Of a stretch of DNA of 64,000 nt, positions 125 through 24,784 are shown piece by piece. Position numbers and translations under genes: made by a program. The stretch is from Natrarchaeobius halalkaliphilus (GTDB taxonomy: Archaea; Halobacteriota; Halobacteria; Halobacteriales; Natrialbaceae). Each line of letters begins with the position of its first letter. The first letter of the stretch is position 1. The notes under the pieces are model-generated. The model was not told the DNA's origin. It saw only the letters and a list, made by a program, of their open reading frames with translations, and searched no databases. The DNA lies in contig NZ_REFY01000006.1 in assembly GCF_003841485.1 (NCBI RefSeq), positions 62,001 to 126,000 on the forward strand, read 5' to 3'.

Positions 125-3100
125 TCAAGTGTTCTCGCTAGCGACGCCCTCGGACTCTCCGAACGAGTCCTCGTTTTGATCGTCTCCATCGAACGGGTCA
201 TCTCCGTTGAACGGACTCTCTCCGGTTGGGGGATCGTCCGGCGTCTCGGGCTCAGTCGGCTCCCCCTCCTCGCTGAACGACGGATCGATTTCGCCGGCGG
301 TCGCGGTCGATGCGACCGGCCACTCCTCGGCGTCGTAATCGTAGTTGCTCATATCGATCTCCCAGACGAGCTGTTCGTCCCCGTCCACCGGCGTCCACTC
401 GACGGTGAACTCGCCGTCACCGGCCGATAGGTCGTCGACTGGCTCGTCGGCCGTCGTTCCCTCGACGAACTCGCTGGTGACGGCCAGTGAGCCGTCGTTG
501 GGATTCTCGTAGCCGAACGTCACGTCGATTCCCTCTCCGGTCGGTGTAGCGTCCACGACGTCGATTACGGGGAGCTCGGGCCGGACGTCTTCCAGACACG
601 CCGCGCCGTCGGGGTTCGGATAGTCTATCGATCCGGGAACCGCCTCCGGCGAGCTAACTCCCGTTATAGCCGTTCCGAACTCACTAATGGGAATTTCGAC
701 GAGCGCGCCCTCTTCCGTTTCGGTGATCGTATACTCGTCGCCCACCTCGAAAGCGACGGTTCCCTCGAGCGGCGCGTCCACGTCGTCACCGACGGCGATC
801 GCGTACTCACCCATCGTGTTCCCCAGACCGCCGGACTCGTAGAACGCCGTGGTCGCGATGATCGTCTCGCCCTCTTCGAACGACCCCATCACCTCGGCGC
901 GCGAGCAATCGACGAACTCGACGTCCAGTTCGATCGGATCCTCGTACTCGTCCGCCGGCTCCGTCTCCGCCCGAACCGATTCGTCGTAGCCGAAGCTCTC
1001 CATGGGAATCTCCCATATCAATCGCTCGGCGTCGTCTTCGGGCGCCCACTCGACGGTGAACTCGCCGTCACCGACCGATAGCTCATCGACCGGTTCGTCG
1101 GCCGTCGTTCCCTCGACGAACCCGCCTCCGGTGAGTGCCGCGTCGTTCGGGTTCTCGTAGCCGAACGTCACGTCGAAGCTTCCCGAACCGGTGCTCTCGA
1201 CGTCCTCGACGGTGATCGTCGGCTCGTCGGGCTGGATCTCCCCACCGCACTCGAGGTCCTCGGGTGGCGACGCGAGCTGTTCTTCCGCGCTGTCGGCGGG
1301 GTCGAACCACGGGACGACGAACGAACCGAACGAGCCCTCGTCGGGAACCTCGAGGACGACGGTCTCCGAATCGAGCTGATCGATCTCGTACTCCTCACCG
1401 ACGGTCATCACGACGGTTCCGGTGAACGGCGCGTCGATCTCGTCGCCGGCCGTGACGCCGGGGAAGACGGTGCCGCCCGGACCGATCGAGTCGTACCAGA
1501 GCGTCCGCGGAACGAGCGAGTCTCCTTCCTCGAGTGTCCCCGTCACCTCGAGTTCCGTACAGTCGACGTACTCGACCGAGAGCTCCTCGACGGGCTCCCC
1601 GAGCGTGTACTCGATGGTCTCGGTCGCGAGCGTCTCGCCGTCGGCCATCGAGACCACCGCGACGTCGAGGACGGTTTCGGCCTCGAGAGGCGGCTCGAGA
1701 TCGACGCTCCCGTTTTCGACCGGCTCGTTCGCATCGATCGGATCGGTCTCGCCGCGTTCGTCGCCGTTCTCGTCGGTGACCGCGAGCGCGTACTCGACCG
1801 ACGCGTTCGCCTCCTCGACCGTTAGCGTCTCACCGTCGCCGGTCTGGTCGCTCACCGCGAGCGTCGCCTCGGGTTCGTCTTCGATCGGTTCGTCGGGTTC
1901 GCCCTCGAGCGTCACGAACGCCCCGTCGGTGATCGGACTACCGCCGTCGGTGACGTACGGTTCGTCTTCGATCCCGTCGGTGTTCGCGTACTGGAACGTC
2001 TCGTCATCCGTCGTGTCGTGGTGGGCGACCGCGACGAGCGATCCGCTCTCCGCGAGCGGTTCGTCGAGGTCGATTTCGACGCCTTCGTGCTCACCGGGCT
2101 CTATGTGCTCGGAGACGCCGCGAACGTCGCCGGAGTCGACACCGAAGTCGCTACCGTCGTATACCGCCACGAAGCCGTCCTCCGAGAGGGCCACCGAATC
2201 GATTGTAACGCTGTCGCCGGTGGACTCCTGATCGCTGAACGCGACCGTCGCCGTTCCCTCGAGTTCGTCGACCTCCTCGAGTTTCTGGGCGACTTCGACT
2301 TCGACGAACTGACCGAGTTGATCCTCGTCGTCGGTTTCTTCGGCAATCGCGTAGGCCGAGACCTCGGACGCGGTCTCCTGGGTCACGACCTGGATCTGTG
2401 TGATGCTGATCCGCTGGTACTGGATCGCTCGTGCCGTCTCCTGGCCAGCGCTTCGAGCCGCGATCTGGAGCTGCGTGATCGTCGCCTCCTGGTGCTGGAC
2501 GAGGACGCCGCTCGAGGCTCCGCGGGCGAGCTGTTGGACCTGGGTGATATCGACGATCTGCGTCTGTAACACCGCTCCTTCGCCCGCACCGCGTGCGGCG
2601 GCCTGAATCCGTTCGATTTCGACGATCTGATACTGCAGTGCCGACTCGATCGCACCGCTTGCGGAGCCGGCGGCTGCGTACTGGATCTGCGTGATCGACA
2701 CGGTCTGGTGTTGGACGAGCGTCCCCTGGGCGGCCCCGTCGGCCGCGGCCTGAATCTGCTCGACGGTCGCCTCCTGACTCTGCTGGATCGACCCTTTGGC
2801 CGCGCCGAAGGATGCCTGCTGGATCGCCGTAATCGAGATCCGCTGGATCTGTTCGACGCGGACGGACTGGACCTGAATCAACGATCCCTTACCCGCCCCG
2901 CGAGCCGCGGCCTGCGTCTGTTCGATCGTCACCTCCTGTCGCTGGACGAGCGCACCCTTTGCGGCACCCGTCGCGGCCTTCTGGACCTGCTTGACGTCGA
3001 CTCGCTGGTACTGTTCGACCTCGAGCAACTGGCGCTGTTCGAGGGCGATCTCCGTACTCCCCTCGAGCGCGCCCGCCGAGGCACCCGCCGTCGCGTGCTG

Positions 3101-3883
3101 GACGTGCTCGAGCGTGATCTGCTGGCGTTGCTCGACGGTTATCTTCTGGTACTGTGCCAGCCCACCGTAGGCCGCTCCCTGTGCGGCTTCCTGGATCGTC
3201 GGTTTCCGATCGATGCCCTTCTGGCCGGCCTCGTTCGCGGCACCCGCCGCTGCGCCGTAGGTCGCGACCTGTACCGCGTCGACGGTCACGCGCTGGTGGT
3301 GTGCCTGTGCGAGTGCACCGTGGGTTGCACCCCAGGTTGCACTCCGCATCTGGCTCGCGTTGACCGTCTGTGACTGGGAAAGCGCACCGCCGGTCGCCCC
3401 GCCGACGGCGTACTGGATCTGCTCTGCGTCGACCCGTTGGGCCTGCATCACCGAGCCGTGAACCGCACCTTTGGTCGCCTCCTGGACCTGCTCGACGCTC
3501 GCCTCTTGATGCTGACCGACGGAGTCGCGCGCGCCGTCGACCGCGGCGGCCCGCTGTTCTTGCGTCACGTCGATCCCCTGTGACTGAGCGAGTTCGATCC
3601 CGTCCTCGACGCCGTCCACGAGTGCGTCCTCGTGGTCCTGTGAGATCTCCTGGGGCTGTGACGGCGTCGCCGGGTCCGCTCCAGCCGACCCCATCGAGAG
3701 CGCCTCGGCCGTCAGCCCCGAATCCGATCCCGCCTCGAGCCCGCCGAACTCCGCGTTCGAGTCGGGTACCGCATCTTCGGTGCCCGTCACTCCGGTCAGC
3801 CCTCCCCCGAGCAACGGCAACGCAACGACGCTCGTCACCATCGTGATGGCGATGAGCCCGACGAGCACGCGCGTCTCAGCCAC
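125..3883 (-). CDS. Large secreted glutamine-repeat protein with DUF7282-like domain
   Basis: This 1252-residue acidic protein starts with a hydrophobic signal-like segment (about residues 8-32). Residues about 75-510 hold roughly 14 imperfect repeats of 25-30 residues. Each alternates an Ala/Gly stretch of the form AAxGAxxGxL with a Gln-rich stretch such as VQRQEVTIEQTQ. Around 545-660 there is a region resembling the haloarchaeal DUF7282 domain (VALSEDGFVAVYDG, EHIEPGEH). From about 740 onward two modules of roughly 190 residues are tandemly duplicated (VDCTELEVTG.. and VDCSRAEVMG.., each followed by VTFGYENPND). The tail is rich in Asp/Glu/Pro and I see no PGF-type sorting signal or C-terminal membrane anchor. 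Export is inferred from the signal. The function is unknown; a cell-surface or matrix role is a guess. Confidence 0.85.
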   Translation of the reverse strand: MAETRVLVGLIAITMVTSVVALPLLGGGLTGVTGTEDAVPDSNAEFGGLEAGSDSGLTAEALSMGSAGADPATPSQPQEISQDHEDALVDGVEDGIELAQSQGIDVTQEQRAAAVDGARDSVGQHQEASVEQVQEATKGAVHGSVMQAQRVDAEQIQYAVGGATGGALSQSQTVNASQMRSATWGATHGALAQAHHQRVTVDAVQVATYGAAAGAANEAGQKGIDRKPTIQEAAQGAAYGGLAQYQKITVEQRQQITLEHVQHATAGASAGALEGSTEIALEQRQLLEVEQYQRVDVKQVQKAATGAAKGALVQRQEVTIEQTQAAARGAGKGSLIQVQSVRVEQIQRISITAIQQASFGAAKGSIQQSQEATVEQIQAAADGAAQGTLVQHQTVSITQIQYAAAGSASGAIESALQYQIVEIERIQAAARGAGEGAVLQTQIVDITQVQQLARGASSGVLVQHQEATITQLQIAARSAGQETARAIQYQRISITQIQVVTQETASEVSAYAIAEETDDEDQLGQFVEVEVAQKLEEVDELEGTATVAFSDQESTGDSVTIDSVALSEDGFVAVYDGSDFGVDSGDVRGVSEHIEPGEHEGVEIDLDEPLAESGSLVAVAHHDTTDDETFQYANTDGIEDEPYVTDGGSPITDGAFVTLEGEPDEPIEDEPEATLAVSDQTGDGETLTVEEANASVEYALAVTDENGDERGETDPIDANEPVENGSVDLEPPLEAETVLDVAVVSMADGETLATETIEYTLGEPVEELSVEYVDCTELEVTGTLEEGDSLVPRTLWYDSIGPGGTVFPGVTAGDEIDAPFTGTVVMTVGEEYEIDQLDSETVVLEVPDEGSFGSFVVPWFDPADSAEEQLASPPEDLECGGEIQPDEPTITVEDVESTGSGSFDVTFGYENPNDAALTGGGFVEGTTADEPVDELSVGDGEFTVEWAPEDDAERLIWEIPMESFGYDESVRAETEPADEYEDPIELDVEFVDCSRAEVMGSFEEGETIIATTAFYESGGLGNTMGEYAIAVGDDVDAPLEGTVAFEVGDEYTITETEEGALVEIPISEFGTAITGVSSPEAVPGSIDYPNPDGAACLEDVRPELPVIDVVDATPTGEGIDVTFGYENPNDGSLAVTSEFVEGTTADEPVDDLSAGDGEFTVEWTPVDGDEQLVWEIDMSNYDYDAEEWPVASTATAGEIDPSFSEEGEPTEPETPDDPPTGESPFNGDDPFDGDDQNEDSFGESEGVASENT

Positions 3884-4307: not shown

Positions 4308-4341
4308 CTCGGAAACCGAAGTATTGAACTTGGTTTACGAG
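4308..4341. promoter_or_regulatory. Candidate BirA operator over the bioYMN promoter
   Basis: An inverted repeat CTCGGAAACC (4308-4317), a 14-nt spacer, then GGTTTACGAG (4332-4341). The half sites match at 9 of 10 positions. The spacing and the GTAAACC/GGTTTAC core are those of known BirA operators. The spacer holds an AT-rich stretch (GTATTGAA) about 25-32 nt upstream of the bioY ATG, where the TATA box of a leaderless transcript would sit, so binding would block the promoter. Confidence 0.75.
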
Positions 4342-4352
4342 GGAGGGGCGGT

Positions 4353-4940
4353 ATGGCAACTCAACGCAACTCCGTCGACCTCGTTCCCGACGACGTCGTC
4401 CGATCGTTTGCTCGAGCGGCCCTGCTCGCCGCGCTGTTGGGTGCGGCCGCACCCGTGACGATACCGATCCCGCTGTCGCCGGCACCGATCACGCTGCAGA
4501 TACTGTTCGTTTTCCTTGCGGGTCTCATCCTCGGTCCGCTGTGGGGTACCGTTTCGATCCTGCTCTATCTCGCAGCCGGTGCGATCGGACTCCCGATCTT
4601 TGCGGGTATGGCCGGCGGCCCCGGCGTTCTGGTCGGCCAGACGGCGGGCTATCTCTGGGCGTATCCGGTCGCTGCCGCGCTGATCGGCCTCCTCGTTCAC
4701 CGCGGAACGTCGCTTCGCGACCCCGCCGACGAATCGGTAGTGGTCCTCGTCGGCGCGCTCGTCGCGGCGACGATCCTCGTCTACGGGATGGGAACGGCCT
4801 ACATGGCCTGGCTTCTCGACCTCGAGGCGTGGGAGGCCATCACTCTCGGCGCGCTCCCGTTCGTTCCCGGCGAACTCCTCAAGATGGCCGCCGCCATCGC
4901 GATCGTCAAAAGCGGTCGGATCGAGCCGATCCGATCGTAA
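4353..4940 (+). CDS. bioY: Biotin ECF transporter S component BioY
   Basis: A 195-residue integral membrane protein with about six hydrophobic segments, which binds biotin in the membrane. BioY hallmarks are visible: the N-terminal region with TIPIPLSPAPITLQ followed by GLILGPLWG, and the central FAGMAGGPGVLVGQTAGYL stretch typical of the family. A palindrome resembling a BirA operator lies directly upstream. The next gene begins 9 nt after the stop, so bioY, bioM and bioN form one operon encoding a three-part biotin importer. Confidence 0.95.
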   Translation: MATQRNSVDLVPDDVVRSFARAALLAALLGAAAPVTIPIPLSPAPITLQILFVFLAGLILGPLWGTVSILLYLAAGAIGLPIFAGMAGGPGVLVGQTAGYLWAYPVAAALIGLLVHRGTSLRDPADESVVVLVGALVAATILVYGMGTAYMAWLLDLEAWEAITLGALPFVPGELLKMAAAIAIVKSGRIEPIRS

Positions 4941-4949
4941 CCACCGGCG

Positions 4950-5654
4950 ATGATCGAATTCGACTCGGTTTCCTACGCCTTCGAGGACGTTCCCGTCATC
5001 GACGAACTTTCGCTCTCGATCGACGACGGTGAGTTTGTCGCACTCGCCGGAGCGAACGGCAGCGGAAAGACGACCCTGTTGCGACACTGTAACGGCTTGC
5101 TCTCGCCCGACGAAGGGGCGGTCCTCGTCGACGGACGTCCGGTCGAGGACGACCTGATCGCCGCCCGCTCGAGCATCGGCATGGTTTTTCAGCACCCTCG
5201 CGATCAGTTCGTCGCGGCGACGATCGGCGCGGACGTCGCGTTCGGGCCGGAAAACCTCGGTCTCGAGCGATCGGAGATCGATCGTCGAGTCGAGGCGTCT
5301 CTCGAGGCCGTGAACATGGCCGGCCGCGAAACCGAGCGAATCGACGCACTTTCGGGCGGCGAACAGGCTCGCGTCGCCATCGCCGGCGCGCTCGCGATGG
5401 AGCCCTCGCATCTGATTCTCGACGAACCTTTCACCGGGCTGGACGATCCCGCTCGTCGATCGGTACTCTCGCGACTCGAGTCACTCGCGGAGAACGATAC
5501 CGGCGTCGTGCTCGCGACCCACGATCTCCGTGACGTCATCGACCTCGCGGATCGCGTCGTCGCCATGCGGAACGGCCGGGTCATCGTCGACGACCGACCG
5601 GATCGTGCGCTTGCCGGACTGGACGGCGCGGAGGTTCGCGTTCCTCGATGCTGA
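4950..5654 (+). CDS. bioM: Biotin ECF transporter ATPase BioM
   Basis: A 234-residue cytoplasmic ABC ATPase that powers uptake by the BioY/BioN complex. Walker A is GANGSGKTT at residues 34-42, the Q-loop is in FQHPRDQF, the signature is LSGGEQ, Walker B is LILDEPFTGLD and the switch histidine is in ATHDL. The FQ(H/N)P-DQ-F pattern is characteristic of EcfA/BioM/CbiO ATPases. It overlaps bioN by 7 nt. Position next to BioY rather than a cobalt or nickel S component supports biotin as substrate. Confidence 0.93.
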   Translation: MIEFDSVSYAFEDVPVIDELSLSIDDGEFVALAGANGSGKTTLLRHCNGLLSPDEGAVLVDGRPVEDDLIAARSSIGMVFQHPRDQFVAATIGADVAFGPENLGLERSEIDRRVEASLEAVNMAGRETERIDALSGGEQARVAIAGALAMEPSHLILDEPFTGLDDPARRSVLSRLESLAENDTGVVLATHDLRDVIDLADRVVAMRNGRVIVDDRPDRALAGLDGAEVRVPRC

Positions 5655-6352
5655 CGTACAAACCGGACCAGACGATCGCCCATCGACTCGATCCCCGCTC
5701 GAAGCTCGCCGTCCAGCTCGGCTTCGCAGCCACCGCACTCGCACACACCAGCCACCGAGCACTGCTCGCGCTCTCGCTCGTCTGTGCGTTCGTGCTGTTC
5801 GTCGCCCGGGTGCCGCTTTTCGAGACGCTCTATGCCTACCGATTCGCGCTGGTCGTTCTCGCGACCGCACCGCTGATTGCCGCGGTGACGCTCGGGCCGC
5901 CCTGGTTCGACGCCTCCGATGGCCTCGCGTCCGCGCGAGCGAGCTACCGCGTTCTCCTCATCTTGCTCGTCAGCACGGCCTACGTTCGGTCGACCCCGGT
6001 CCGTCACTCTCGCGCCGCGATCCAGCGGACCGTTCCCGGCAAGCCCGGCCAGGTTCTCGGAATCGGTGTCGCGCTCGTCTTTCGATTCCTCCCGGTGCTT
6101 CAGGGCGACCTTCGTACGATCCGCGACGCCATGGCCGCCCGTCTGGGAACCGAACGGAACGCGCTCGAGCGCCTCACGACGATCGGATTGCTGGGTCTCA
6201 CGCGGATGTTCGAGCGGGCCGATCGACTCTCGCTCGCGTTACGGGCTCGCTGTTTCGCGTGGAACCCGACGCTTCCCATGCTGTCGTTTTCACGGCTCGA
6301 CGTTCCGGTGGTGATCGGAGCCGTTGCACTCGCACTGACGGCGTTCCTCTGA
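5648..6352 (+). CDS. bioN: Biotin ECF transporter transmembrane T component BioN
   Basis: A 234-residue membrane protein of the EcfT/CbiQ family that couples ATP hydrolysis by BioM to movement of BioY. The N-terminal HRLDPRSKL motif is typical of T components. The cytoplasmic coupling region contains the Ala-Arg-Gly-type motifs as AMAARLGTER and ALRARCFAWNP. Hydrophobic helices flank these. Its start overlaps the end of bioM. No further gene follows on this strand before the tRNA-Thr locus. Confidence 0.9.
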   Translation: MLTYKPDQTIAHRLDPRSKLAVQLGFAATALAHTSHRALLALSLVCAFVLFVARVPLFETLYAYRFALVVLATAPLIAAVTLGPPWFDASDGLASARASYRVLLILLVSTAYVRSTPVRHSRAAIQRTVPGKPGQVLGIGVALVFRFLPVLQGDLRTIRDAMAARLGTERNALERLTTIGLLGLTRMFERADRLSLALRARCFAWNPTLPMLSFSRLDVPVVIGAVALALTAFL

Positions 6353-6692: not shown

Positions 6693-6766
6693 AGCCGGTG
6701 GAGGGATTTGAACCCTCGACCTAATCCTTACGAAGGATTCGCTCTGCCAGTCTGAGCTACACCGGC
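6693..6766 (-). tRNA. tRNA-Thr(CGU)
   Basis: On the minus strand the sequence folds as a cloverleaf. The acceptor stem GCCGGTG pairs with CACCGGC, followed by discriminator U. The D-arm contains TAGCTCAG, the anticodon stem AATCC/GGATT encloses loop TTCGTAA with anticodon CGU, and the T-arm contains GGTTCAAATCC. It is 74 nt without encoded CCA, and no intron is seen. Confidence 0.95.
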
Positions 6767-23756: not shown

Positions 23757-24698
23757 ATGAACGAGACACGAGAGGCGATCCTCGAGGCGATCGCGGACGG
23801 CCCGGTTTCGGGACCGGATCTGGCGACCGATCTCGACGTCTCGCGGGCGGCCATCTGGAAGCATATCGACGAGCTTCGAGACGCCGCCTTCGAGATCGAA
23901 AGCGGCCCGCACGGGTACGAACTGCTCGACGTCTCGGCGTACAACGGCCCGTCGATCGAGTACGAGCTCGAGGCGCCGTTCAGCGTGGAGTATCACGACG
24001 CGGTCGAGAGTACGAACGATCTCGCTCGAGAGCGCGCCGTCCACGGTGCGACGGACGTCGCCGTCGTCGCGAACGAACAGCGGGGCAGCCGCGGTCGTCT
24101 CGAGCGCGAGTGGTCGTCACCCGCCGGCGGGATCTGGATAAGTCTCGTCACACGTCCGGCGGTCGCGCCGGCGCGGGCACCGCTGTATACGCTCGCTGCG
24201 GCGGTGGCGACGGCGCGGATCGCTCGAGAGGCGGGCGTCGATGCGCAGATCAAGTGGCCGAACGACGTGGTCGTCCCGGTCGGGGACGACGGCGACTACC
24301 GGAAGCTCGCTGGCATTCTCACTGAAATGGAAGGTGAAACGGACAGGATCGACTGGCTCGTCGTCGGGATCGGCATCAACGCGAACCTCGACGCGTCCGA
24401 CCTGCCAGACGGCGCAACGAGCGTTCGCGACGAGACGGGCGACGACGTCGATCGTCGTCGGTTCGTACAGCGCCTCGTCGAGGAGTTCGACCGCGCTCGG
24501 GGCGACCTCGAGTCGGTCGTGTCCGCCTGGCGTGAACTCGCGTTGACGATCGGACAACGCGTCCGGGTCGAGCGAGCGACCGGCGAACTCGTCGGTGACG
24601 CCGTCGACGTCACCGAGACCGGTGCGCTAGTTCTCGAAACGGACGACGGTCGAACGACGGTTTCGGCCGGCGACTGCGAACACCTGCGGCCGACCTGA
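23757..24698 (+). CDS. birA: Biotin--protein ligase BirA with N-terminal repressor domain
   Basis: A 313-residue bifunctional protein. Residues 1-60 form a winged helix (LEAIADGPVSGPDLATDLDVSRAAIWKHIDELR), so this is a Group II ligase able to bind DNA. The ligase domain has VESTNDLARE, the biotin-binding NEQRGSRGRLEREW with GRGR-like loop, and KWPNDV; the C-terminal SH3-like cap spans about 265-313. It biotinylates carboxylases and can repress genes when charged with biotinyl-AMP. The candidate operator at 4308-4341 is its likely target. I chose the ATG at 23757 because the open frame upstream has no homology. Confidence 0.93.
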   Translation: MNETREAILEAIADGPVSGPDLATDLDVSRAAIWKHIDELRDAAFEIESGPHGYELLDVSAYNGPSIEYELEAPFSVEYHDAVESTNDLARERAVHGATDVAVVANEQRGSRGRLEREWSSPAGGIWISLVTRPAVAPARAPLYTLAAAVATARIAREAGVDAQIKWPNDVVVPVGDDGDYRKLAGILTEMEGETDRIDWLVVGIGINANLDASDLPDGATSVRDETGDDVDRRRFVQRLVEEFDRARGDLESVVSAWRELALTIGQRVRVERATGELVGDAVDVTETGALVLETDDGRTTVSAGDCEHLRPT

Positions 24699-24710: not shown

Positions 24711-24784
24711 CCCGTCCGCTCGACGTGGTTGTAAAACCCGATTGAACTCCCGGTTCACTCCACTGTAACCCGTGCCGGTCTGGG

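Follow-up and report, generated by a model that had tools for sequence, protein, structure and literature searches.

A probable BirA operator enclosing the TATA box of bioY and overlapping the start codon of bioB in haloarchaea

Known BirA systems and the bioYMN locus of Natrarchaeobius halalkaliphilus

A BirA regulatory signal has reportedly been described in Archaea, as the title of an article by Rodionov, Mironov and Gelfand (2002, Genome Res 12:1507) is said to announce, and its abstract reportedly states that the presence of the HTH domain correlates with BirA sites. The type of signal is therefore already known, in Archaea too, and the haloarchaeal dyad described here is a well-supported further case of it. 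In bacteria, the BirA operator has the consensus TTGTAAACC-[N14/15]-GGTTTACAA, and a symmetric variant, GTCAACC..GGTTGAC, is listed (PMC545781). In Lactococcus lactis, BirA1 binds the bioY promoter, as examined by EMSA (PMC4861984). With the bacterial operators (E. coli bioO, B. subtilis, delta-proteobacteria; PMC545781) the haloarchaeal dyad shares the half-site core, the spacing and the symmetric variants, and with the bacterial biotin regulon (PMC545781) the targets bioB and bioY, the one or two sites per genome and a regulator with an N-terminal HTH. As in L. lactis (PMC4861984), a group II biotin ligase appears to control bioY by way of a palindromic site. The same dyad is also found before the bioY genes of Lachnospiraceae, Bacillaceae and Lactococcus. 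It differs from the bacterial operator in the outer base pair, which is TCGTAAACC here and TTGTAAACC in bacteria, and in its archaeal promoter, with TATA/BRE lying within the spacer at bioY and the start codon lying within the operator at bioB. The L. lactis bioY promoter, in contrast, is of the bacterial sigma type, with −35/−10 elements and a ribosome binding site (PMC4861984). In the literature, which was covered partially, no account of haloarchaeal BirA regulation, of two operator geometries or of a link to bioU was found.

The window, that is, the whole stretch of 64,000 nucleotides analysed, contains the following features.

4308-4341, no strand assigned: putative BirA-type operator CTCGGAAACC-N14-GGTTTACGAG, core half-sites at 4311-4317 and 4332-4338
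4317-4321, plus strand: BRE-like CGAAG; base 4317 is common to the left half-site, the remainder lies in the spacer (haloarchaeal BRE CGAAA, PMC4983044)
4322-4327, plus strand: TATA-box-like TATTGA within the spacer of 14 nt, some 28 nt upstream of the ATG (TATA TTWT, PMC4983044)
4353-4940, plus strand: bioY, 195 aa, the S component that binds biotin in an ECF transporter (Pfam PF02632, E=1e-40)
4950-5654, plus strand: bioM-like ECF ATPase, 234 aa (Pfam PF00005; NCBIfam ECF_ATPase_1, E=3e-67, under its cut-off)
5648-6352, plus strand: bioN-like ECF T component of the CbiQ family, 234 aa (Pfam PF02361, E=1e-14)
23757-24698, plus strand: birA, bifunctional biotin protein ligase, 313 aa, N-terminal HTH at residues 5-54 (Pfam HTH_11, BPL_LplA_LipB, BPL_C)

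The S, A and T components of an ECF biotin transporter are encoded in tandem as one bioYMN operon (4353-6352). The divergent bioY promoter is adjoined by a gene on the minus strand (125-3883), whose 1252-aa product contains numerous degenerate VxxEQxQxAAxGAAxGALxQxQ-type repeats and, after them, acidic domains; a tRNA-Thr (cgt) gene lies downstream of the operon (6693-6766, minus strand).

The first-pass annotation, made from the sequence of the window, had assigned a DNA-binding domain to the birA product, and HTH_11 is indeed recognised there (E=4e-11). BirA unites the ligase domain, the C-terminal domain and the N-terminal winged HTH in a single protein, the architecture of a group II biotin protein ligase. 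Among the NCBIfam models, birA_ligase scores above its cut-off and the repressor-domain model TIGR00122 under it (44.8 of 70 bits); the closest relatives in the PDB are BirA/BPL proteins. The recognition helix VSRAAIWKHIDELRD is identical at 11 of 15 positions to MSRAAINKHIQTLRD of E. coli BirA (1BIA), and SRAAIxKHIxxLRD is common to both.

The coordinates and sequence of CTCGGAAACC-N14-GGTTTACGAG given in the first-pass annotation, including the match of the half-sites at 9 of 10 positions, proved exact on re-reading, and the GTAAACC core and BirA-type spacing that it had named equal the published bacterial consensus (PMC545781). The left arm CTCGGAAACC occupies 4308-4317, the 14-nt spacer GAAGTATTGAACTT 4318-4331 and the right arm GGTTTACGAG 4332-4341, so that the dyad ends 12 bp upstream of the bioY start codon. 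The arms are complementary at 9/10 positions, the mismatch being a G in place of the T of a perfect repeat; the left half-site thus reads GG, not GT, in this genome, as it does in many related genera. The inverted repeat GTAAACC/GGTTTAC is matched at 13/14 core positions, and the N14 spacer falls in the range of 14-15 nt of BirA operators. The dyad is the sole match to GTAAACC-N14-GGTTTAC with at most one mismatch in the 3.5-Mb genome. In the 64-kb window alone, three matches with at most three mismatches were found against 0.76 expected, and its window-only significance is modest. A second dyad, with two mismatches, behind birA (24731-24758) lies between convergent gene ends with no promoter and was taken as chance; no sign of birA as its own target was seen in this genome.

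Conservation of the dyad and promoter geometry at bioY

Relatives were searched with the pattern GTAAACC-N14-GGTTTAC, allowing at most one mismatch, and with the reversed pattern as control. The dyad is present in 121 of the 125 genomes of the family (control, 4/125) and in 226 of the 292 genomes of the class. Strict GTAAACC scoring undercounts the sites, because it misses symmetric variants and spacers of 13/15 nt: most of the genomes counted as lacking a site in the class scan carry a symmetric GTCAACC..GGTTGAC or a 13/15-nt spacer. The genome of Haloferax volcanii encodes BioY, and a perfect dyad is found in Haloferax gibbonsii and Haloferax prahovense. In the complete genomes of the family the dyad is located at bioY. 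The search for the dyad at biotin genes of relatives that the first-pass annotation had proposed thus placed it at bioY in nearly all of them, at a fixed distance from the ATG, and also at bioB, contrary to the absence from relatives that the annotation had named as refuting. The dyad therefore stands at promoters of genes for biotin transport and synthesis, namely at bioY in the window and at bioB on contig C2, and likewise in relatives.

Haloarchaeal promoters carry a TATA box of the type TTWT and the BRE CGAAA, and 72% of the transcripts of Haloferax are leaderless (PMC4983044). The overlap of the dyad with the TATA position, also claimed at the outset, was borne out: CGAAG (4317-4321) and TATT (4322-4325, 28-31 nt upstream of the bioY ATG) are flanked by the two half-sites. 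With a TATA-like box some 28 nt from the ATG, a leaderless transcript is to be expected. In most relatives, the distance from the dyad to the bioY ATG is 42-43 nt, and with this distance fixed the TATA box falls in the spacer. A footprint of the region upstream of bioY, built from 46 genera with a single genome each, gives values of up to about 2 bits per position in the half-sites and about 0.1 in the flanks; the spacer consensus across these genera is GAAG-TNTT-NAT, i.e. BRE/TATA.

As BRE CGAAG and the TATA box sit in the middle of the dyad and are themselves conserved, the conserved sequence might be a regulator-free core promoter with an accidental look of a dyad. This is extremely unlikely, since the half-sites and not the TATA box are the strongest positions, and since the arms vary symmetrically (GTCAACC..GGTTGAC). 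Such symmetric change of both arms favours a dimeric binder.

The second target, bioB

The number of sites per genome follows the presence of bioB. In the family, one site is found in 14 of the 16 genomes in which bioB is absent, and at least two sites in 84 of the 101 in which it is present (Fisher p=5e-8, phylogeny ignored). In the complete genomes of the family, the second site is located at bioB and is found almost only where bioB exists. One genome without bioB (G021) has two bioY genes, with a dyad before each.

The bioB operator spans about −19 to +9 relative to the start at the first codon. Its right half-site forms codons 1-3 of the gene: all 30 of 30 relatives start with NTG-GTT-TAC-GAG, and NTG-GTT-TAC is found in the genome of N. 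halalkaliphilus too. A TATA-like box lies about 28 nt before the bioB start, in several relatives in-frame stops occur just upstream of it, and bioB looks leaderless. The dyad at bioB is downstream of the TATA box and over the start codon, which already contradicts its explanation as core promoter. The following feature was located outside the window.

G000:C2:435996-437036, minus strand: own bioB of N. halalkaliphilus, site GTAAACCACAGACGAATGAGTTGTTGAC at 437028-437055 with two core mismatches

Judged by this site, the circuit takes in bioB as well, on contig C2, and so goes beyond the picture drawn in the first-pass annotation.

In relatives, bioB is the first gene of a bioB-bioU-bioF-bioD operon. 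In two of them (G011 and G030) bioB is followed by genes for a BioU homologue and BioF. The BioU homologue of G011 matches NCBIfam NF047886 with E=3e-105, under the curated cut-off, and a further open reading frame after BioF resembles BioD by its Walker motif. No bioU, bioF or bioD neighbours were found beside bioB in the genome of N. halalkaliphilus. BioU is a suicide enzyme that replaces BioA, and homologues lie between bioB and bioF in haloarchaea at L271:1957-3018 and L272:4137-5327. The scanned L271 homologue reached 352 of 600 bits, well under the curated NCBIfam cut-off; such haloarchaeal genes are therefore probably missed by automatic annotation.

Third sites were seen in a few genomes. 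In G056-G057 they stand where a bioB-like paralogue begins, its start embedded in the dyad as at bioB (L191:1501-1528; also L190). This paralogue with its start-embedded dyad occurs in three related genomes, G056-G058 (G058:C65:2937), L191 having been read and the others assigned by site similarity. The third sites of L186 and L196, located within or next to unrelated genes, appear to be chance matches.

Covariation with the BirA DNA-binding domain and the proposed regulatory cycle

The covariation of the dyad with the HTH of BirA is the strongest test of the operator reading, which it supports well at the level of genome comparison. The sharper comparison takes genomes in which bioY is retained: among those with an HTH-bearing BirA, the dyad is found at bioY in 107/110, and among those without the HTH in 1/6 (p=2e-6, phylogeny ignored). 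Class-wide, a site is present in 226 of 277 genomes with the HTH and in none of 15 without it. The latter were obtained by searching for the BirA N-terminal sequence in 391 genomes of the class, of which 17 had no match and three had weak matches only; 15 HTH-less genomes fell in the 292-genome class sample (0/15 with a site; p=5e-11, common descent ignored). These 15 genomes are weak evidence and mainly reflect loss of the whole pathway, because most of them are also without bioY and six are without any BirA-like protein. Six haloarchaeal genomes (G125, G126, G129, G162, G177 and G185) have no BirA-like ligase, bioY or site at the thresholds used and apparently represent biotin-independent lineages.

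The informative losses of HTH and dyad come from two genera (g67 and g86) of one family. In G217 and G255, the sole HTH-less genomes checked for the ligase domain, this domain is kept, the HTH is absent and bioY is without the dyad. The space upstream of the ligase domain is occupied by a divergent hisD in G217 and by an acidic linker in G255. Genes for bioY without a dyad, with scores at chance level, were found in G217, G255 and G382 of one genus and in G361 and G393 of another. G360 (L269) has a truncated bioY, a decayed dyad GTAAATC..GGTTTAT and no detected BirA HTH, an apparent case of loss in progress. A degraded dyad at bioY was also seen in three genomes with the HTH (G016, G221 and G249). 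The bioY genes that are without a dyad when the BirA HTH is absent depend equally on a promoter, which again speaks against a core promoter as the source of the dyad.

The covariation also bears on the identity of the binding protein. Another transcription factor of biotin genes might occupy the dyad, given that binding of BirA is predicted from sequence only and that haloarchaea are rich in winged-helix regulators, including proteins of about 121 aa with a BirA-like HTH. This is very unlikely: the motif and spacing match the bacterial BirA signal, the dyad tracks the BirA HTH across genomes, and 11/15 residues of the recognition helix agree with E. coli BirA. With the dyad at bioY in nearly all relatives, also at bioB, and covarying with the BirA DNA-binding domain, the initial assignment of a BirA operator is upheld. 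We consider it highly probable that the BirA encoded in the window has the dyad at 4308-4341 as its operator; the dyad is very probably the switch at which BirA would silence the biotin-uptake genes when biotin is plentiful.

We propose the following cycle, in which binding, dimerisation, dependence on biotinyl-AMP and the direction of repression are modelled on E. coli. When biotin is ample and the acceptor proteins are already biotinylated, BirA loaded with biotinyl-AMP would dimerise, and its two HTH domains would grip the two GTAAACC half-sites. With BRE/TATA enclosed between them, assembly of TBP/TFB would be blocked and bioYMN uptake silent. As unbiotinylated carboxylase builds up, BirA would act as a ligase and quit the DNA, and the transporter would be made. 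At bioB, whose mRNA seems to be leaderless, the operator overlaps the start site, and initiation would take place beneath the dimer if this were bound. Operators at both bioY and bioB would allow uptake and synthesis to be switched jointly. As both the direction of BirA action and its ligand are deduced by analogy, BirA could instead activate from the dyad or respond to a cue other than biotin, such as salt or growth phase. We regard this as scarcely credible: none of the results points to it, sites over BRE/TATA at bioY and over the start at bioB are hard to reconcile with activation, and the BirA family consists of biotin-responsive repressors (PMC545781).

It is likely that a single BirA operator serves in two geometries in this archaeal class, whose genes can be leaderless: at bioY it surrounds the TATA box and would block TBP/TFB, and at bioB it covers the start codon, so that codons 1-3 (NTG-GTT-TAC) would be fixed as a half-operator. 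The regulon would include bioB-bioU-bioF-bioD and would disappear along with the DNA-binding domain of BirA. Of the transcription circuits by which archaea sense metabolites, few are understood, and here a regulator can be proposed together with its ligand, its operator and the two promoters that it targets. If true, the circuit shows how an ancient bifunctional enzyme-repressor works on a promoter of the TBP/TFB type. A clean evolutionary control is provided by the natural joint loss of the BirA DNA-binding domain and the operator. For annotation, a regulon could be assigned to hundreds of haloarchaeal genomes.

Two further groups of proteins related to BirA were observed. Six genomes (G127, G134, G140, G187, G296 and G300) encode a second biotin-ligase-like protein without the HTH beside the bifunctional BirA, and such a protein has been reported for Halobacterium sp. 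(PMC3199775). Stand-alone 121-aa winged-helix proteins (e.g. G054:C2:1139929) have an HTH about 50% identical to that of BirA, and several per genome are present in some Natrialbaceae.
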